Translations under genes and position numbers: made by a program | The notes under the pieces: generated by a model | Seen by the model: the letters and a program-made list of their open reading frames with translations, nothing else | The model's database searches: none | Told to the model about the DNA's origin: nothing | From: Deltaproteobacteria bacterium | GTDB lineage: Bacteria; Myxococcota; Myxococcia; Myxococcales; 40CM-4-68-19 | Direction of reading: 5' to 3' | NCBI GenBank assembly: GCA_005879315.1 | Contig: VBLC01000040.1 | Coordinates: 1-64,000, forward strand | Length of the DNA stretch: 64,000 nucleotides | Shown here: piece by piece, positions 7,378-14,217 of the stretch | Layout: each line of letters starts with the position of its first letter | Numbering within the stretch: position 1 is the stretch's first letter

Positions 7378-8388
7378 GTGCGCATCCTACTGCCGGTCGT
7401 CTCCGCGGCTGTGTTGATCTTCGTCGCTTGCGACACCACCACCAGCCCGAGCGCCGGGTCCGGCGGCGGCGGTGGATCGGTGGACGGCGGCTCCGGAGGA
7501 GGAGGAGGCAGCGGTGGTGGGGGAGGCGGAGGCGGCGGGGGCGGAGACGGTGGTCAGGATGGCGGCTCCGGCGCAGGTCTCCCGGCGCTGATGGTTCTCG
7601 CCGCCGGCGAGAAACCCTATGCCGTCGCCATCAACGACGGCAACGTCTATTGGGTCGACAAGAACTTCGACGTCCGCACCGTTCCGAAGGGCGGCGGGAC
7701 CCCTGCGACCATCACGCACGCCGGATCGCATCCGCAGTTCATGCTGGCCGACGAGAGCGCCGTCTACTGGACCTACGGCAACAACTACTGGCGCGCTCCG
7801 CTGGGCGGCGGCGGGCCCTCGGACATCGACAACAACCTCACCTCGATCTGGTTCGGCTCTGACGCCAGCACGGCTTACTACGAGAAATGGCTCGGCCCCG
7901 GCCAGCCGAATGCCATCGTCAGCCGCGCCAGAGACGGCTCGGGCGCGGTGACGGTGCACGCAGAGGTGCAGGAAACGAACGGCGCGGTCACCATCGGTCC
8001 CGGCGCCATCTTCTGGGCCGAGCGCGGCAGCATCTACTCGGCCCCCGCGGGAGGCACCGGCCGTAACCTCGTCGCCAGCCTGCCCTCCAGCGGCTACATT
8101 CTCGGCCCCATCAAGGCGAACGATAGCAACGTCTTCTTCCGCAGTATCGATGGCATTTTCTCGGTCCCGCAATCGGGCGGCACGCCGACGCGGCTCGCCA
8201 ACGCAGCAGGCGGGGATCCGCCGGCGCTCGACGCCAACTCCGGCGTCGCCTACTGGAACGACCGTTGCCTGGCCTCCTCCACCAGGGGCTGCATCGACAC
8301 CGGCGGCACCAGTTACGGCTCGGTCAAGGTCGACGACACCGCCATCTACTTCGTCCGCGGCGATGATCTGATGAGACTCACGAAATAG
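7378..8388 (+). CDS. Beta-propeller-like lipoprotein with Gly-rich linker
   Basis: 336 residues from GTG 7378. The signal peptide ends in a lipobox-like FVAC with Cys18, so it is probably lipid-anchored. A low-complexity linker of mostly Gly with some Ser/Asp spans about residues 27-68. The remainder holds repeats of roughly 45 residues with a GNVYWVDK / SAVYWTYG / GAIFWAE / SNVFFRS / GVAYWND / TAIYFVRG core, each followed by a GG-T-P turn. This looks like a six-bladed propeller of the kind found in many myxobacterial secreted proteins. The function is unknown. It is monocistronic and converges on the MscS gene. Confidence 0.75.
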   Translation: MRILLPVVSAAVLIFVACDTTTSPSAGSGGGGGSVDGGSGGGGGSGGGGGGGGGGGDGGQDGGSGAGLPALMVLAAGEKPYAVAINDGNVYWVDKNFDVRTVPKGGGTPATITHAGSHPQFMLADESAVYWTYGNNYWRAPLGGGGPSDIDNNLTSIWFGSDASTAYYEKWLGPGQPNAIVSRARDGSGAVTVHAEVQETNGAVTIGPGAIFWAERGSIYSAPAGGTGRNLVASLPSSGYILGPIKANDSNVFFRSIDGIFSVPQSGGTPTRLANAAGGDPPALDANSGVAYWNDRCLASSTRGCIDTGGTSYGSVKVDDTAIYFVRGDDLMRLTK

Positions 8389-8392
8389 AGCG

Positions 8393-8406
8393 CGGCCCTC
8401 GGGCCG
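8393..8406. terminator. Hairpin between convergent genes
   Basis: CGGCCC-TC-GGGCCG is a perfect inverted repeat with a two-base loop. It lies exactly between the stop of the lipoprotein gene and the stop of the convergent MscS gene. There is no T-run, so if it ends transcription it does so weakly or in a Rho-assisted way. Confidence 0.3.
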
Positions 8407-10167
8407 TCAGGCCTTGTCGTCGTCCAGGCCGAAGAAGGTCTGGATGCTGGAGAGGAGCTGGCTGCGCTCCTCCTTGATGCGCCGCCGCTTGGCCTCGGCG
8501 TCGAGGCCCTCGCGGATGGCGGCCAGCTCCACCCGCCTGCGCGCCATCACCTGCGAGATCACGTCCATCATCTCCGGCCGGTTGCGCAGGACCGACTTGA
8601 AGACGTCCTTGTCGATCCGGTAGCACTCCACCTCGGTGGCGGCGACGACGCTGGCGGTGCGCCGCTCGCCGGTCATCACTCCCATCTCGCCGAAGACGTT
8701 GGGGGCGGTCAGGCGGGAGACGAGCTTCTCCGCGCCGCCCTCGCCGCGGATGCGCACCTCGACCTCGCCTTTGCTGAGCACGTAGAGCCAGTGCGCGGCG
8801 GAATCCTGCCGGGTGATGATCTCGCCGCGGCCGTAGGGGGCCGGGCGCATTCCCTCGGAAAGGCGGACGCGGTCCTCGTTGGTGAGCAGGGAGAACATCT
8901 CGATGTGCTTGAGCGCCTCGACCCGGTGCTGGATCTCGCGCTCCACCTTGCGCTGCCTGTGCTCGGGATCGTCCACCGAGACCCAGAGGGCCTGCCCCGG
9001 GACCGCCAGCGGGATTCCGGCGCGCTTGAGCGCGACGTAGATGCGAACCCGCACGGCGCTCGAAGTCGGGTCGTCGGCCGAGAGGTCGGTGAGCCAGTAG
9101 CGGACGGCGTAGAAGGCGAAGCTGTCCGCCCCCTGGCGGGCGAAGTCGTAGCAGATGCAGTTCGGCGGGGGAAAAGCCGCGACATGCGGAATGGGCGTCG
9201 ATTGCAGCGCGTCCTCGACCACGTTGATGACTTCCTCCGGCGAATAGCGGAAGTCGACGTTGAAGTAGACCCACATACGGTGCTGGTTGGGCTGATCCTG
9301 CCGCTGCCCGAGGATGACGATGTGGTCGCCGAGCAGGCTGGCGTTGGGCACGATGATGGTGTCCCAGTTGCGCGTCTCCACCATCGTGTGCCGCCAGCGG
9401 ATGGCGACGATGCGGCCCTGCTGGCCGCTGGACAGCTGCACCCAGTCGTTGACGTGGATGGAGTCGTCGAGCTGCAGCGCGATGCCGCCGAGGACGTTGC
9501 CGAGAGTGGCCTGCAGCGAGAGGCCGAGCACCACCGTGACGACCGCGCTGGTGGCGATGATGCCGGAGAGGTGCACCCCGCTCCGGTGGAGAATGCCGAT
9601 GAAGGCGAGGATGTACGCCGCGCCCAGCGCCAGGTCGTGGACGATGTTGGCCACCTCGATGCGCAGGGCGAAGAGCACCAGGTCGAAGAGGAGGATGGCG
9701 ACCAGATCGATCACCACCAGCACCTCGAACAGATCGGCGAGGAACCAGACCCGCCGCGACCAGCCTTCGGCGTGCACCATCCCGAGAATGGCGGCGAGCA
9801 TGAAGGTGGTGAGGTAGAGCATGAACAAGATGGTCGCGCGCTTGATCCGCTTGCGTTTGACCGGAGTGAAGCGGCGGATCAGCTCGGCCATCGCCACCAG
9901 CGCCGCCGCCAGCATGAGCAGCGTCCAGGGCGAGGCGTAGCCGAAGAACTGCCGCGCCGCCGGCCGCGGCGCAGGAAAAGCGAACGGGTCCTCGTTGGGA
10001 AGCACGCCTTCCTGGGTGGCGACGATGGCGGCTCCGGCTCCGGCGGCCACCGCTGCGGCGTTGGCGGCCTGGCTCTGCTGCTGCTCGGAGAGGCGCCTCT
10101 GCGCCGGCGGCGGCGCGGCGTGCTCGACGGCCTGAGCGAGGAGCGCGGCGAGAAGAAGGGCCGGCAT
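8407..10167 (-). CDS. MscS-type channel with C-terminal cyclic-nucleotide-binding domain
   Basis: About 586 residues. A signal-like N-terminus is followed by several membrane segments (about 55-205). The MscS pore and beta domain are seen in VVTVVLGLSLQATLGNVLGG then LQLDDSIHVNDWV and TIIVPNASLLGD (about 205-285). From about residue 420 there is a complete cNMP-binding domain. Its phosphate-binding cassette reads FGEMGVMTGERRTASV, with the Glu and Arg expected for nucleotide binding. The C-terminal helix is charged. The family's role is an ion channel opened by tension and, in bCNG members, modulated by cyclic nucleotide. Its ATG overlaps the phosphodiesterase stop (TGATG), which implies coupled translation. 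Confidence 0.88.
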   Translation of the reverse strand: MPALLLAALLAQAVEHAAPPPAQRRLSEQQQSQAANAAAVAAGAGAAIVATQEGVLPNEDPFAFPAPRPAARQFFGYASPWTLLMLAAALVAMAELIRRFTPVKRKRIKRATILFMLYLTTFMLAAILGMVHAEGWSRRVWFLADLFEVLVVIDLVAILLFDLVLFALRIEVANIVHDLALGAAYILAFIGILHRSGVHLSGIIATSAVVTVVLGLSLQATLGNVLGGIALQLDDSIHVNDWVQLSSGQQGRIVAIRWRHTMVETRNWDTIIVPNASLLGDHIVILGQRQDQPNQHRMWVYFNVDFRYSPEEVINVVEDALQSTPIPHVAAFPPPNCICYDFARQGADSFAFYAVRYWLTDLSADDPTSSAVRVRIYVALKRAGIPLAVPGQALWVSVDDPEHRQRKVEREIQHRVEALKHIEMFSLLTNEDRVRLSEGMRPAPYGRGEIITRQDSAAHWLYVLSKGEVEVRIRGEGGAEKLVSRLTAPNVFGEMGVMTGERRTASVVAATEVECYRIDKDVFKSVLRNRPEMMDVISQVMARRRVELAAIREGLDAEAKRRRIKEERSQLLSSIQTFFGLDDDKA

Positions 10168-10934
10168 CAGATGAAGGTATAAACCTCTTCCAGCTCGCAG
10201 ACGTGGAGGAAGTCCATCTTCAGCGACCGCACTTCCGCTTTCACTTCGTCGATGACCGCGGGCTTGAGGTGGTAGAGGTAGATCTTCGCCCCGCGCCGAT
10301 CGAGCTTCTGCAATTCCGAGATCACCGTCTTGGGCGTCAGGTGCCCCGAGACGTCCGCCAGCCACTGCATGCTGGTGGGAAAACTCAGCTCGAGGAACAC
10401 CGCGCGCAGGTTGGGAGTGGCGTTGATGGCGCGCCACAGCTCGTCGGTCGGACCGGTGTCGCCGGAGAAAGCGACGGCGCCGACGCGGCTCTCGAGGATG
10501 TAGCCGACCGAGTAGACCGGATGCTGCACGGGAATGGCGCGGATCTTCAGGCCCTGGCAGGTGACCGGCTTGTGGATGGGGATGGTCTCGAAAGCGAGGA
10601 CCGGCTTCTCCTTGGTGGGGATGACGCGGAAGTCGGGCCATACCCGGTTGTTGAAGACGTCCTTGTCCATCGTCTCCATCGTCTCGGCCGGCCCGTGGAC
10701 CACGACCGGCGTCTTGCGCTTGCCGACGAGGAGGTCGGTCATCAAGGGGACGTCCTTGATGTGATCGAAATGGCTGTGGGTGAGGAAGATGTCGTCGATT
10801 TTGAGGACATCGTCGAGCTGCAGGACGGAGGTGATCGATCCGCCGTCCACGCAGAGCTTCTGGTCGACGAGAAAACAGGTGGTGCGATAGCCGGGAAGCT
10901 CTCCGCCGTGACAACCGAGGACGCGAATCTTCAT
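10167..10934 (-). CDS. Class II cyclic-nucleotide phosphodiesterase-like metallo-beta-lactamase-fold enzyme
   Basis: 255 residues. The metal motif HSHFDH lies at about residues 53-58. Later ligands include AIPVQHPVYSVGY, FSGDTG and YHLKP near the end. The overall pattern, with a short N-terminal strand MKIRVLGCHGG and HLTPKTVISEL, fits PDEase_II-type enzymes, which hydrolyse 3',5'-cyclic nucleotides. Other MBL hydrolases (RNase Z-like) share the core, so the substrate is inferred from its position between two cNMP-binding genes. It starts one base after the CRP-like gene and its stop overlaps the channel start. Confidence 0.75.
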   Translation of the reverse strand: MKIRVLGCHGGELPGYRTTCFLVDQKLCVDGGSITSVLQLDDVLKIDDIFLTHSHFDHIKDVPLMTDLLVGKRKTPVVVHGPAETMETMDKDVFNNRVWPDFRVIPTKEKPVLAFETIPIHKPVTCQGLKIRAIPVQHPVYSVGYILESRVGAVAFSGDTGPTDELWRAINATPNLRAVFLELSFPTSMQWLADVSGHLTPKTVISELQKLDRRGAKIYLYHLKPAVIDEVKAEVRSLKMDFLHVCELEEVYTFI

Positions 10935-10935
10935 G

Positions 10936-11583
10936 CTAGTCCCCGAACCGCTCTTTCATCTCCAGAAACTCGAGGTACTTCTGCATCTTGCCGGTGTCGG
11001 GGACGACGATGCCTTCGGGGACGACGGCGATGATGCGCGCCTTGGCGGTCTTGCCCACCGCCTCTTGCACCTCGGCGAGGGTGAGGCCCATCCGGCCGTG
11101 CAGCTCGCTCGCGTTGACGGCGACCAGCTTGCCCTGCGGCGTCTCCTTGCCGCGCTTGGTGGCCGCCTGCAGCAGGTAATGGACCACGCGGCTGTTGGGA
11201 TCGCGGAGGAGGAGATTTTCGATCTGCTCGTCCGCTTCCTGCAGCCGGTCGGAAAGCTTCTTGATCAGCCGGACGGCGATCTCGACGTTGCCGCGGATCA
11301 TCGCCTCGAAGGTCTTGGGATCGATCACCAGGAGCTTGGCGTCCTCGGCCACCACTGCGCCGGCGGAGCGAGGCTTGTTGTTCAAGAGCGCCATCTCGCC
11401 GAGGAATTCCCCGGCGCCGAGGGTGGCGAGAATCTTCTCCGTTTCCCGGACCTTCTTGGTGATGTTCACCTTGCCGGTCTGGACGACGTACATCTCCTTC
11501 CCCGGCTCGCCTTCGCGGAAGAGGATTTCGCCCCGCTTGAACTCCTTACCGAAGCGCTGGAAGAGGGCGTCCTCACCGGCCAT
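10936..11583 (-). CDS. CRP/FNR-like cNMP-binding protein
   Basis: 215 residues. The N-terminal cNMP-binding beta-roll (about 8-125) has the cassette FLGEMALLNNKPRSAGAV, with the canonical Glu, Arg and Ser contacts. A dimer helix follows (about 115-145), then a Crp-type winged helix (about 165-205; GLTLAEVQEAVGKTAKARII). It could be a transcription factor. The recognition helix is not textbook, so DNA binding is likely but unproven. It lies 90 bases after the cyclase gene and one base before the phosphodiesterase gene, within the cyclic-nucleotide module. Confidence 0.85.
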   Translation of the reverse strand: MAGEDALFQRFGKEFKRGEILFREGEPGKEMYVVQTGKVNITKKVRETEKILATLGAGEFLGEMALLNNKPRSAGAVVAEDAKLLVIDPKTFEAMIRGNVEIAVRLIKKLSDRLQEADEQIENLLLRDPNSRVVHYLLQAATKRGKETPQGKLVAVNASELHGRMGLTLAEVQEAVGKTAKARIIAVVPEGIVVPDTGKMQKYLEFLEMKERFGD

Positions 11584-11673
11584 GGAGAATTCCTATCAGT
11601 GGTCCTCCGGGGGGGTCAATTTCGCGGCCGTGACTCTCGTCACGAGCGAGGCCTGAAGCCTGAGGCCTGAAAA

Positions 11674-14217
11674 CTACTTGTGCGCCATCCGGTAGACCCC
11701 GTCCCACTTCTCGCCGGGCGGGCTCTCCGTCATCTGCTCGCAGCGGCGCACGAAGAGCGCGCTCGGGCCGTCTTCGGGAAAGCGCTGGAGCATGCTCTCG
11801 AACTGCAGCTGCGCCTCAGCGAACTTGCGCGCGCGGTAGAGCCGCAGCCCTTCGGCGTAACCGCTCAAGAGCGGCATCTCGGAGGTCGCGGCCGGTCCGC
11901 GCGAACGAAGCTCGAAGAGGCGCACCGGCTCCTTCTTTCCCTGCACCGCGACGAAATCCAGCTCGCGAACGCAATACGCGCTCTCCTCGTGGAGCCCCTT
12001 GCGCGCCGACTGCAGCGTCTGCTCGGAGATGAGGATGTGGGTGCCGAATTCCTTGTTCAGCCCCTCGAGGCGGCTGGCGGTGTTCACGTTGTCGCCCATC
12101 ACCGTGTAGTTGAAGCGCTGGCTCGAGCCCATGTTGCCCACCACCATCGGGCCGGAGTTGATGCCGATGCCGATGTCGATGTGGGGCATCTCCGGATCCT
12201 CGATCCGCCACCTCTCCCGCAGCCGGGCCAGCGTCTCCATCATCTCCAGCGCCGAGTCGCAGCAGTTGGCGGCGTGCGATTCCGTCGGCACCGGCGCGCC
12301 GAAGAAGGCCATCACCGCATCGCCGATGTACTTGTCGAGCGTCCCCAGGCGGCGCAGGACGATGTCGGTCATGGGCGAGAGATAGGCGTTGAGCAGGTGG
12401 ACCACCTCGGTGGCCGAGAGCGCCTCGCAGATGGCGGTGAAGCCGCGGATGTCGCTGAACATCACCGTCAGCTCCATCTCCTTGCCGCCCAGCGCCAGCT
12501 TCTCCGGCTCGTCGAGCAACTCCTCCATCACTTCGGGATTGAGATAGAGCTGGAAAGCCTTGCGCAGCTGCCGCTTGTCGCGCTCCTCGGTGGCGTAGCG
12601 GTAGACGGTGACGAGGACGAACATCGCGCCCAATTCCAGGAGCGGAAGCGCGGCGAAGGTGTTGTAGCCGGCCCAGAAGGCGAGCGTCACCGCCGCCCAC
12701 ACCAGGGTCGTCGAGACGCAGAGCAGGGGCAGCGAGTAGTTCACCTTCACCTTGGAGAAGAAGAGGGCGAAGAGCAGCGCCATGCCGAAGAGAACGGCGA
12801 TCTCGACCGTCTGCACGAGCGGCCCGCGCACCAGGTAGCGCCGGGAGAGGATGGTCTCGATGGTGTTGGCGTGCGTCTCGATGCCAGGGACGATCTTGTC
12901 CATCGGGGTGACGCGCTGATCGAAGGTGCCCTGGGCGGTGGCGGCGACGAGCACCAGCTTGTCCTTCAGCTCGGCGTCGTACTTGCCGTCCATGATGTCG
13001 GCGATCGACCAGCGGACGAAGGTGTTCTGCGGGCCGAAGTAGTTGATCTCGATCAGCCCGCGGCCGTCGGTCGGCACCAGCCGCTTGCCGCCAATGTCGA
13101 CGGAATCGATCTCGCCGTCCTCCGCGTTGGTGGTCACGGGCGTGATCTCGGAAGGCTTGACTCCGAGCGCGATGGCGGCCATCGCGGCCGAGAGCGCGGG
13201 CAGGTACCGCCCCTTGACCTGCACCGCGAGCGGCTCGTGGCGGATGACGCCGTCGTGGTCGGGCAGCGCATTGAAGAAGCCGAACCACTGGGTCGAGGCG
13301 GCGATGGGCGCGAGCGGCGCGCGCAGGCCGGCGTACTCCTTGATCCAGCTGCGCTTGACGGGCTGCGCTCCCTCGCCGCCGCCCTGCAGCGGATAGCGGA
13401 ACTCCGGATCGTGCAGCCGCGAACGCTCGATGCGCCTGACGTGCTCCTCGGCGTCCTCGGGCTTGAAGTCCTTCATCTCCGGCTCGGTGAGCGCCACCCA
13501 GCCGATGGCGATGCGGGACCCGGCGCGCTTGACCGCCTCGCCCATCACCGTGTCGGGGTCGAGGCCGGTCAGGTCGTGGTCGAGCTCGGCGGCGTACTCG
13601 TGGTGCTCGCGGATCAGCTGATCGAACTGCTCCTTGGAAGCGATGACCTTGCTGCGGCCATCCTCCAGCCGCCCCTTGGCAGTCTTGTAGATGGGCTCGG
13701 CGCCGGGCTTGACCCTGGTCCCAAGAGCGAGCAGCGCGGAGGCGGCGCCGGCCAGGTCCGAGTCGGCCTCGCTGAAGCGCTCCACCGCGGTCTGATTGCG
13801 CGGCGCCGCCAGCGAGATGTCCTCGAACCGCTTGCGGTAGCGCTTGGCGCCGGCGAACTGGCCGCCGAGGTCCTCGTCGGAGAAGGAGATGTCGAAACCG
13901 ATGGCGCTCACGCCCTGCGCGTTGAGCTTGTCGATCAGGGCCGCGTCCACCCGCCGGTCCCAGGGAAAGCGGCCGTATTTGGCGATGGCGAGCTCGTCCA
14001 CCGCGGCGACGACGACGCGGCCAGAAGTCCGCAGGGGATGGAACTGGTAGCGCTGCTTGAAGCGCAGGTCGACGAGCGCGTCCTCCATGCGGGTGAGGAG
14101 CGGGAGCTCCGCGCGGCCGGCGATCTGCAGGACATGGACGGCGGCGAAGACCAGGCCGGTGGCAAGGCCGATGCGGAAGGCGTTGACCGCCTTCAGCCAG
14201 CGGAGGAAGCGGCGCAT
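11674..14217 (-). CDS. CHASE2-domain adenylate cyclase (class III)
   Basis: About 847 residues. One N-terminal membrane helix is followed by a large extracytoplasmic CHASE2 sensor (about 35-440: [33 protein letters not shown]). Three membrane helices (about 465-555) come next. The cytosolic class III cyclase holds the metal Asp residues in MFSDIRGFT (about 588) and [12 protein letters not shown], and the transition-state Asn/Arg in [13 protein letters not shown]. The Lys in KYIGD with Thr in NYTVMGD is the class IIIb adenylate-type pair. A short TPR-like tail ([18 protein letters not shown]) ends it. It makes cAMP in response to an external cue. ATG 14217 was chosen because it places the first membrane helix correctly. 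Confidence 0.9.

Follow-up and report, generated by a model that had tools for sequence, protein, structure and literature searches.

On the minus strand of the window, the 64,000-nucleotide stretch of DNA analyzed here, four consecutive genes encode a CHASE2 class III nucleotide cyclase (14217–11674, 847 aa), a CRP-like cNMP-binding protein (11583–10936, 215 aa), a predicted MBL-fold class II-type cyclic nucleotide phosphodiesterase (10934–10167, 255 aa; hereafter the MBL protein) and an MscS-type channel of the bCNG type with a C-terminal cNMP-binding domain (10167–8407, 586 aa). The cyclase was assigned by Pfam (CHASE2, E = 1.2e-45; Guanylate_cyc, E = 2e-27), the CRP-like protein by cNMP_binding (E = 2.3e-25), an AF2 model and fold matches in the PDB, the MBL protein by PDEase_II (E = 3.7e-16; Lactamase_B_2, E = 9.2e-17) and its similarity to PDE1, and the channel by Pfam (MS_channel_2nd, E = 5.4e-10; cNMP_binding, E = 1.3e-19) and PDB matches. 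A sequence-only reading of this DNA had described the four genes as following one another on one strand, the last three with a one-base gap and a one-base overlap, and both the order with its Pfam domains and the coordinates bear this out: a single base separates the CRP and MBL genes, and the MBL stop codon and the channel start codon share one base (TGATG). The source genome is 4.4 Mb long in 125 contigs and belongs to an order that includes Myxococcus, Corallococcus and Anaeromyxobacter.

The cyclase and CRP genes are separated by an intergenic region of 90 bases (11584–11673, minus strand), which contains a putative separate promoter for the CRP, MBL and channel genes. A −35-like hexamer, TTGACC (11614–11619, minus strand), is located 36 nt before the CRP start codon and is identical in all seven members of the genus, and TTGAC occurs within 120 nt upstream of the CRP gene at 71 of 79 loci, mostly 36–41 nt before the ATG, versus 6.5% of shuffled sequences. 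A general sigma-70 scan identified no full promoter. The conservation of TTGAC near the start codon suggests a near-leaderless promoter distinct from that of the cyclase; the three downstream genes seem to possess a promoter of their own, by which they could be uncoupled from the cyclase. A putative CRP box, GTGA-CGAGAG-TCAC (11630–11643, minus strand), is perfect as GTGA-N6-TCAC in all seven genomes of the genus, where it lies 10–12 nt before TTGACC; its arms are 100% identical, compared with 36% for the N6 spacer and 26% for the upstream flank. At the other end of the cluster, a terminator-like hairpin (8393–8406, minus strand) lies directly 3′ of the channel stop codon, with one found versus 2.5 expected in shuffled sequences, and is weak if taken alone. 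A gene for a 336-aa lipoprotein-like protein (7378–8388, plus strand) is positioned on the opposite strand between accD and the channel gene; the relatives compared lack it between the channel gene and accD, and it looks like an insertion in the window's genome.

Conservation of the gene order in Myxococcota

The MBL protein was found in 130 of 156 Myxococcota genomes. The CRP gene is directly upstream of the MBL gene at 68 of the 73 named loci with enough sequence and at 14 of 16 loci outside the order, and the junction between them is mostly 0–4 bases or an overlap of 4 across families. A cyclase gene is located upstream of this pair at 37 of 63 named loci; outside the order it still adjoins the pair (13 of 15), although accD and purM are mostly gone. 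The gene order thus recurs in relatives far beyond chance: an order unique to this strain is rejected by its recurrence, and a chance neighborhood by the synteny. The arrangement had been called uncommon by the sequence-only reading, which is wrong for Myxococcota, since the three-gene core is widespread there and it is the channel alone that a single family has added.

This position lacks a cyclase gene at most loci of Myxococcus and of Anaeromyxobacter and at several of Corallococcus; some Corallococcus, Citreicoccus and Hyalangium have the gene. Myxococcus has the CRP and MBL genes, as at the M. xanthus AM003 locus (L126), where no cyclase adjoins them. The CRP-like protein occurs without the MBL protein in some genomes of one genus (g15; G022, G037, G039), and the MBL protein occurs without the CRP-like protein in G016 and G018.

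In almost all of the window's family (12 genomes), purM is followed by the order cyclase-CRP-MBL-channel-accD, the exceptions being contig breaks and one genome, G008, in which other DNA replaces the cyclase gene and all but about 18 CRP codons while the MBL and channel genes are retained. This remnant of the CRP gene lies before the MBL start (L046:4697–4760), and an unrelated gene occupies the place of the cyclase and CRP genes. The channel gene adjoins the MBL gene in 11 of the 12 family genomes, the twelfth being interrupted by a contig end. Among the named loci across the order and phylum, a channel at this position was found only in the window's own family, and outside that family the next gene after MBL is mostly accD or folC. 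Because the core order extends across the phylum and the channel is confined to one family, cyclase-CRP-MBL is an old, ancestral module of Myxococcota, to which the window's family has added a channel gene, inserted downstream of the phosphodiesterase gene.

Cyclase, predicted phosphodiesterase and channel

The residues D589, K629, D633, D709, N712 and R716 of the cyclase, which cover the class III catalytic positions (two metal-binding Asp, the adenine-specifying Lys and Asp, and the transition-state Asn and Arg), are invariant in 14 of 14 orthologues from five families of the order, and the best PDB relatives of the protein are bacterial class III adenylate cyclases, including CyaB. The protein would make a cyclic nucleotide, most likely cAMP. 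Seven further Guanylate_cyc matches are present elsewhere in the genome; the cyclase of the locus is therefore not the only source, and the circuit is not isolated.

The MBL protein scores 59.6 bits against PDEase_II (PF02112), for which the gathering cut-off is 23.7, and all 50 of its orthologues match this family at E ≤ 0.001. Its metal ligands (H53, H55, D57, H58, H138, D159 and H222) are invariant or nearly so in the orthologues. Yeast PDE1 is its best PDB relative by profile (E = 3.7e-15) and ranks first by fold for the AF2 model (TM 0.82; pLDDT 96.5), and the two proteins have in common the motifs HxHxDH, FN..WPD, GHL[ST]P and a final H-x-K. An RNase Z identity was rejected, as all RNase Z models fell far below their cut-offs and PDE1 came first by fold. 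The PROSITE-type signature of class II phosphodiesterases is HxHLDH-x-x-G; the window protein instead has HSHFDHIKD, and some orthologues have HSHLDH followed by VKD. With NF041851 (cyclic nucleotide-degrading phosphodiesterase), which we take to represent the Rv1339 type, it scores 38.6 bits against an NCBIfam equivalog cut-off of 400. Since it departs from the strict signature and falls below this cut-off, the MBL protein is best placed in a subgroup of its own among predicted class II-type phosphodiesterases. It resembles yeast PDE1 and the class II phosphodiesterases (PF02112; CpdP in bacteria) in its MBL fold and three of these motifs, but is about 100 aa shorter and, unlike them, has an equal score with Lactamase_B_2 (PF12706), to which “atypical” class II enzymes such as Rv1339 are assigned (PMC9293780).

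PDB matches of the channel are to YnaI/MscS in the pore part and to PKG/PKA/SthK in the binding domain. Bacterial cyclic-nucleotide-gated (bCNG) channels belong to the MscS superfamily (Caldwell, 2010; Malcolm, 2012; both cited in PMC4560390), and the window protein has the MscS beta domain and pore helix and the C-terminal cNMP-binding domain of this type, with MS_channel_2nd and cNMP_binding both over cut-off. It differs from the bCNG channels in that its gene stands directly behind a phosphodiesterase gene, which it overlaps; its gating is predicted. Relatives with 40–52% identity were found at other loci in three genomes of other families, and the neighbors tested there (methyltransferases, a histidine kinase, YebC and others) included no cyclase or phosphodiesterase.

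The CRP-like protein and the CRP box

The phosphate-binding cassettes are canonical in the cNMP domains of both the CRP-like protein (GEM...R-S) and the channel (FGEM...R-T), and in the canonical pocket of the former E63 and R72 are invariant in 52 orthologues. Its AF2 model adopts the full CRP fold including the wHTH, and its fold matches in the PDB are MtbCRP and GlxR. HTH_Crp_2 scores 15.7 bits in the window protein, below the 27-bit cut-off, and is matched by 50 of the 52 members at E up to 1 (best 3e-10). Averaged over pairs, identity in the cNMP domain is 67%, but in the recognition helix it is 29% (27% at the level of the order), whereas two CRP/FNR families from the same genomes that served as controls, with cNMP-domain identities of 67% and 66%, show 80% and 96% identity in this helix. 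R180 is retained in one of the 52 CRP-like members and R185 in none, the latter position being acidic in 30; the mean charge of the helix is −0.9, versus 0 and +1.7 in the controls, of which family X1 retains SRETV..R. The dimer helix is conserved (68% identity), as is the C-terminal tail (54%). The protein is therefore like the CRP/FNR factors E. coli CRP, MtbCRP and GlxR in its cNMP pocket, dimer helix and wHTH fold, but does not keep R180, E181 and R185, and carries instead the conserved C-terminal tail LEFLEMKxKFGD. The unconserved recognition helix, with R180 lost and R185 mostly acidic where the controls keep theirs, makes a role as a classical transcription factor doubtful; the CRP-like protein is probably in the main a cAMP receptor that would work through contacts with proteins and not as a reader of DNA.

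A paralogue in the window's genome, X1 (L199, G000:C70:54800–56100; gene at 55.2–55.8 kb), is a canonical CRP with an SRETV helix; it is conserved in several of the order's families and is likely the cAMP-CRP of these bacteria. The contacts between CRP and DNA are established and allow the X1 helix to be judged against the box. Because the box at 11630–11643 fits the SRETV helix, which is absent from the local CRP-like protein, X1 appears to be the better candidate for its binder. In the window's own genome, a strict search for TGTGA-N6-TCACA gave no match, and a search for the box plus TTGAC, whose fixed spacing misses the 11–12-nt variants of sister species, returned only this site, so that no wider regulon is readable from it.

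Readings of the locus

The reading that we favor, with moderate confidence, is that of a cyclic-nucleotide signaling locus in which the cyclase is the source, the CRP-like protein and the channel are the binders and the MBL protein is the sink, with a separate promoter under another CRP. The membrane cyclase, with its CHASE2 sensor outside and its class III cyclase domain inside, would produce a cyclic nucleotide, most likely cAMP, to be bound by the CRP-like dimer and the channel through their canonical pockets and removed by the class II-type phosphodiesterase. The CRP, MBL and channel genes would be co-transcribed from their near-leaderless promoter, and in the genus would be controlled through the CRP box, where a different and canonical CRP encoded in the genome probably acts, while the local CRP-like protein would serve mainly as a cAMP receptor through protein contacts and probably not as a classical DNA-binding CRP. 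The sequence-only reading had proposed a complete circuit with production, sensing, removal and an effector in one place. Production, binding and removal together are well supported as a prediction by the intact cyclase residues and cassettes, an MBL protein nearest to PDE1 and the deep conservation of gene order; the proposed completeness is uncertain in two respects, in that the CRP-like protein probably lacks CRP-type DNA reading, and the CRP-MBL-channel unit seemingly has its own promoter and survives without the cyclase. Points that count against a signaling locus are the diversity of MBL proteins together with the SpdA precedent described below, the other cyclases, the separation of the CRP and MBL genes in a few genomes and the retained wHTH. 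We tentatively advance a narrower proposal: having lost the ability to read DNA, the CRP-like protein, a cAMP receptor of CRP fold, would be a “pseudo-CRP” that regulates the other products of its operon by touching them, in the simplest case the phosphodiesterase (or else the cyclase). The module would then be a self-limiting cAMP device conserved in Myxococcota, and in one family this device would directly gate an MscS-type channel.

One rival reading takes the CRP-like protein for a cAMP-dependent transcription factor of the ordinary kind whose binding site has merely changed from lineage to lineage. This is rather unlikely: HTH_Crp_2 is still recognizable in 50 of 52 members, the model keeps the CRP fold with its wHTH, the helix is more alike inside families (52% in the window's family) and the gene is closely preceded by a perfect CRP box, but in that same family the cNMP domain reaches 82%, the control CRPs show the reverse (helices at 92–95%), R180 is lost from 51 of 52 members with R185 replaced by an acidic residue in 30, and the GTGA-N6-TCAC box suits the SRETV helix of X1 rather than the local one. 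It is also unlikely that the MBL protein acts on a 2′,3′-cNMP, a cyclic oligonucleotide or another phosphodiester instead of a 3′,5′-cNMP, in which case there would be no closed cAMP circuit. The structural neighbors of the protein also include RNase Z, YhfI, Apyc1 and PhnP, the NF041851 cut-off is missed, and there is a precedent in Sinorhizobium meliloti, whose cyaD1-clr-spdA locus likewise combines a receptor-type cyclase, the CRP-like Clr and a putative phosphodiesterase: SpdA hydrolyzed 2′,3′- and not 3′,5′-cAMP (PMC4222275), and a phosphodiesterase adjoining a cyclase and a CRP therefore need not hydrolyze 3′,5′-cAMP. SpdA is a class III metallophosphoesterase that hydrolyzes 2′,3′-cNMP, in contrast to the predicted class II-type MBL protein, and no channel is described in that cascade (PMC4222275). 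Against this alternative, PDE1 is the best relative of the MBL protein by both sequence and fold, with the WPD and GHL[ST]P motifs in common, and a cyclase and a cNMP-binding protein are its constant neighbors. That the genes merely share a stable housekeeping neighborhood (folC-accD ... purM-purN) with no functional link is improbable; the frequent absence of the cyclase and the occurrence of CRP or MBL alone in some genomes would agree with this, whereas the tight or overlapping CRP-MBL junction in most genomes, across families, and a cyclase kept beside them at loci outside the order, most of which have lost accD and purM, argue against it.

A search of a literature collection for a cyclase-CRP-phosphodiesterase module in myxobacteria returned no match. 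Within myxobacterial cAMP signaling, cyclases have already been described, among them CyaA and CyaB of M. xanthus, which are osmosensing receptor-type adenylyl cyclases (Kimura, 2002, 2005; cited in PMC7643160). The window cyclase resembles them as a receptor-type cyclase in a myxobacterium, and the link to osmotic stress is that of CyaA and CyaB (PMC7643160); the osmotic control proposed by the sequence-only reading is accordingly a guess by analogy, drawn from this literature and the MscS fold. If the favored reading and the contact model are correct, the locus would represent a cAMP device that is compact, phylum-wide and present in bacteria that can be cultured. It would provide bCNG-type channels with a natural source of their ligand and a natural sink for it, and its CRP would be one that may have given up DNA. 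The greater interest lies in the phylum-wide core of cyclase, “pseudo-CRP” and predicted phosphodiesterase rather than in the four-gene cluster. A second, distant MscS-CNBD channel, with 31% identity, is encoded elsewhere in the window's genome (L098, G000:C28:44817–46235).
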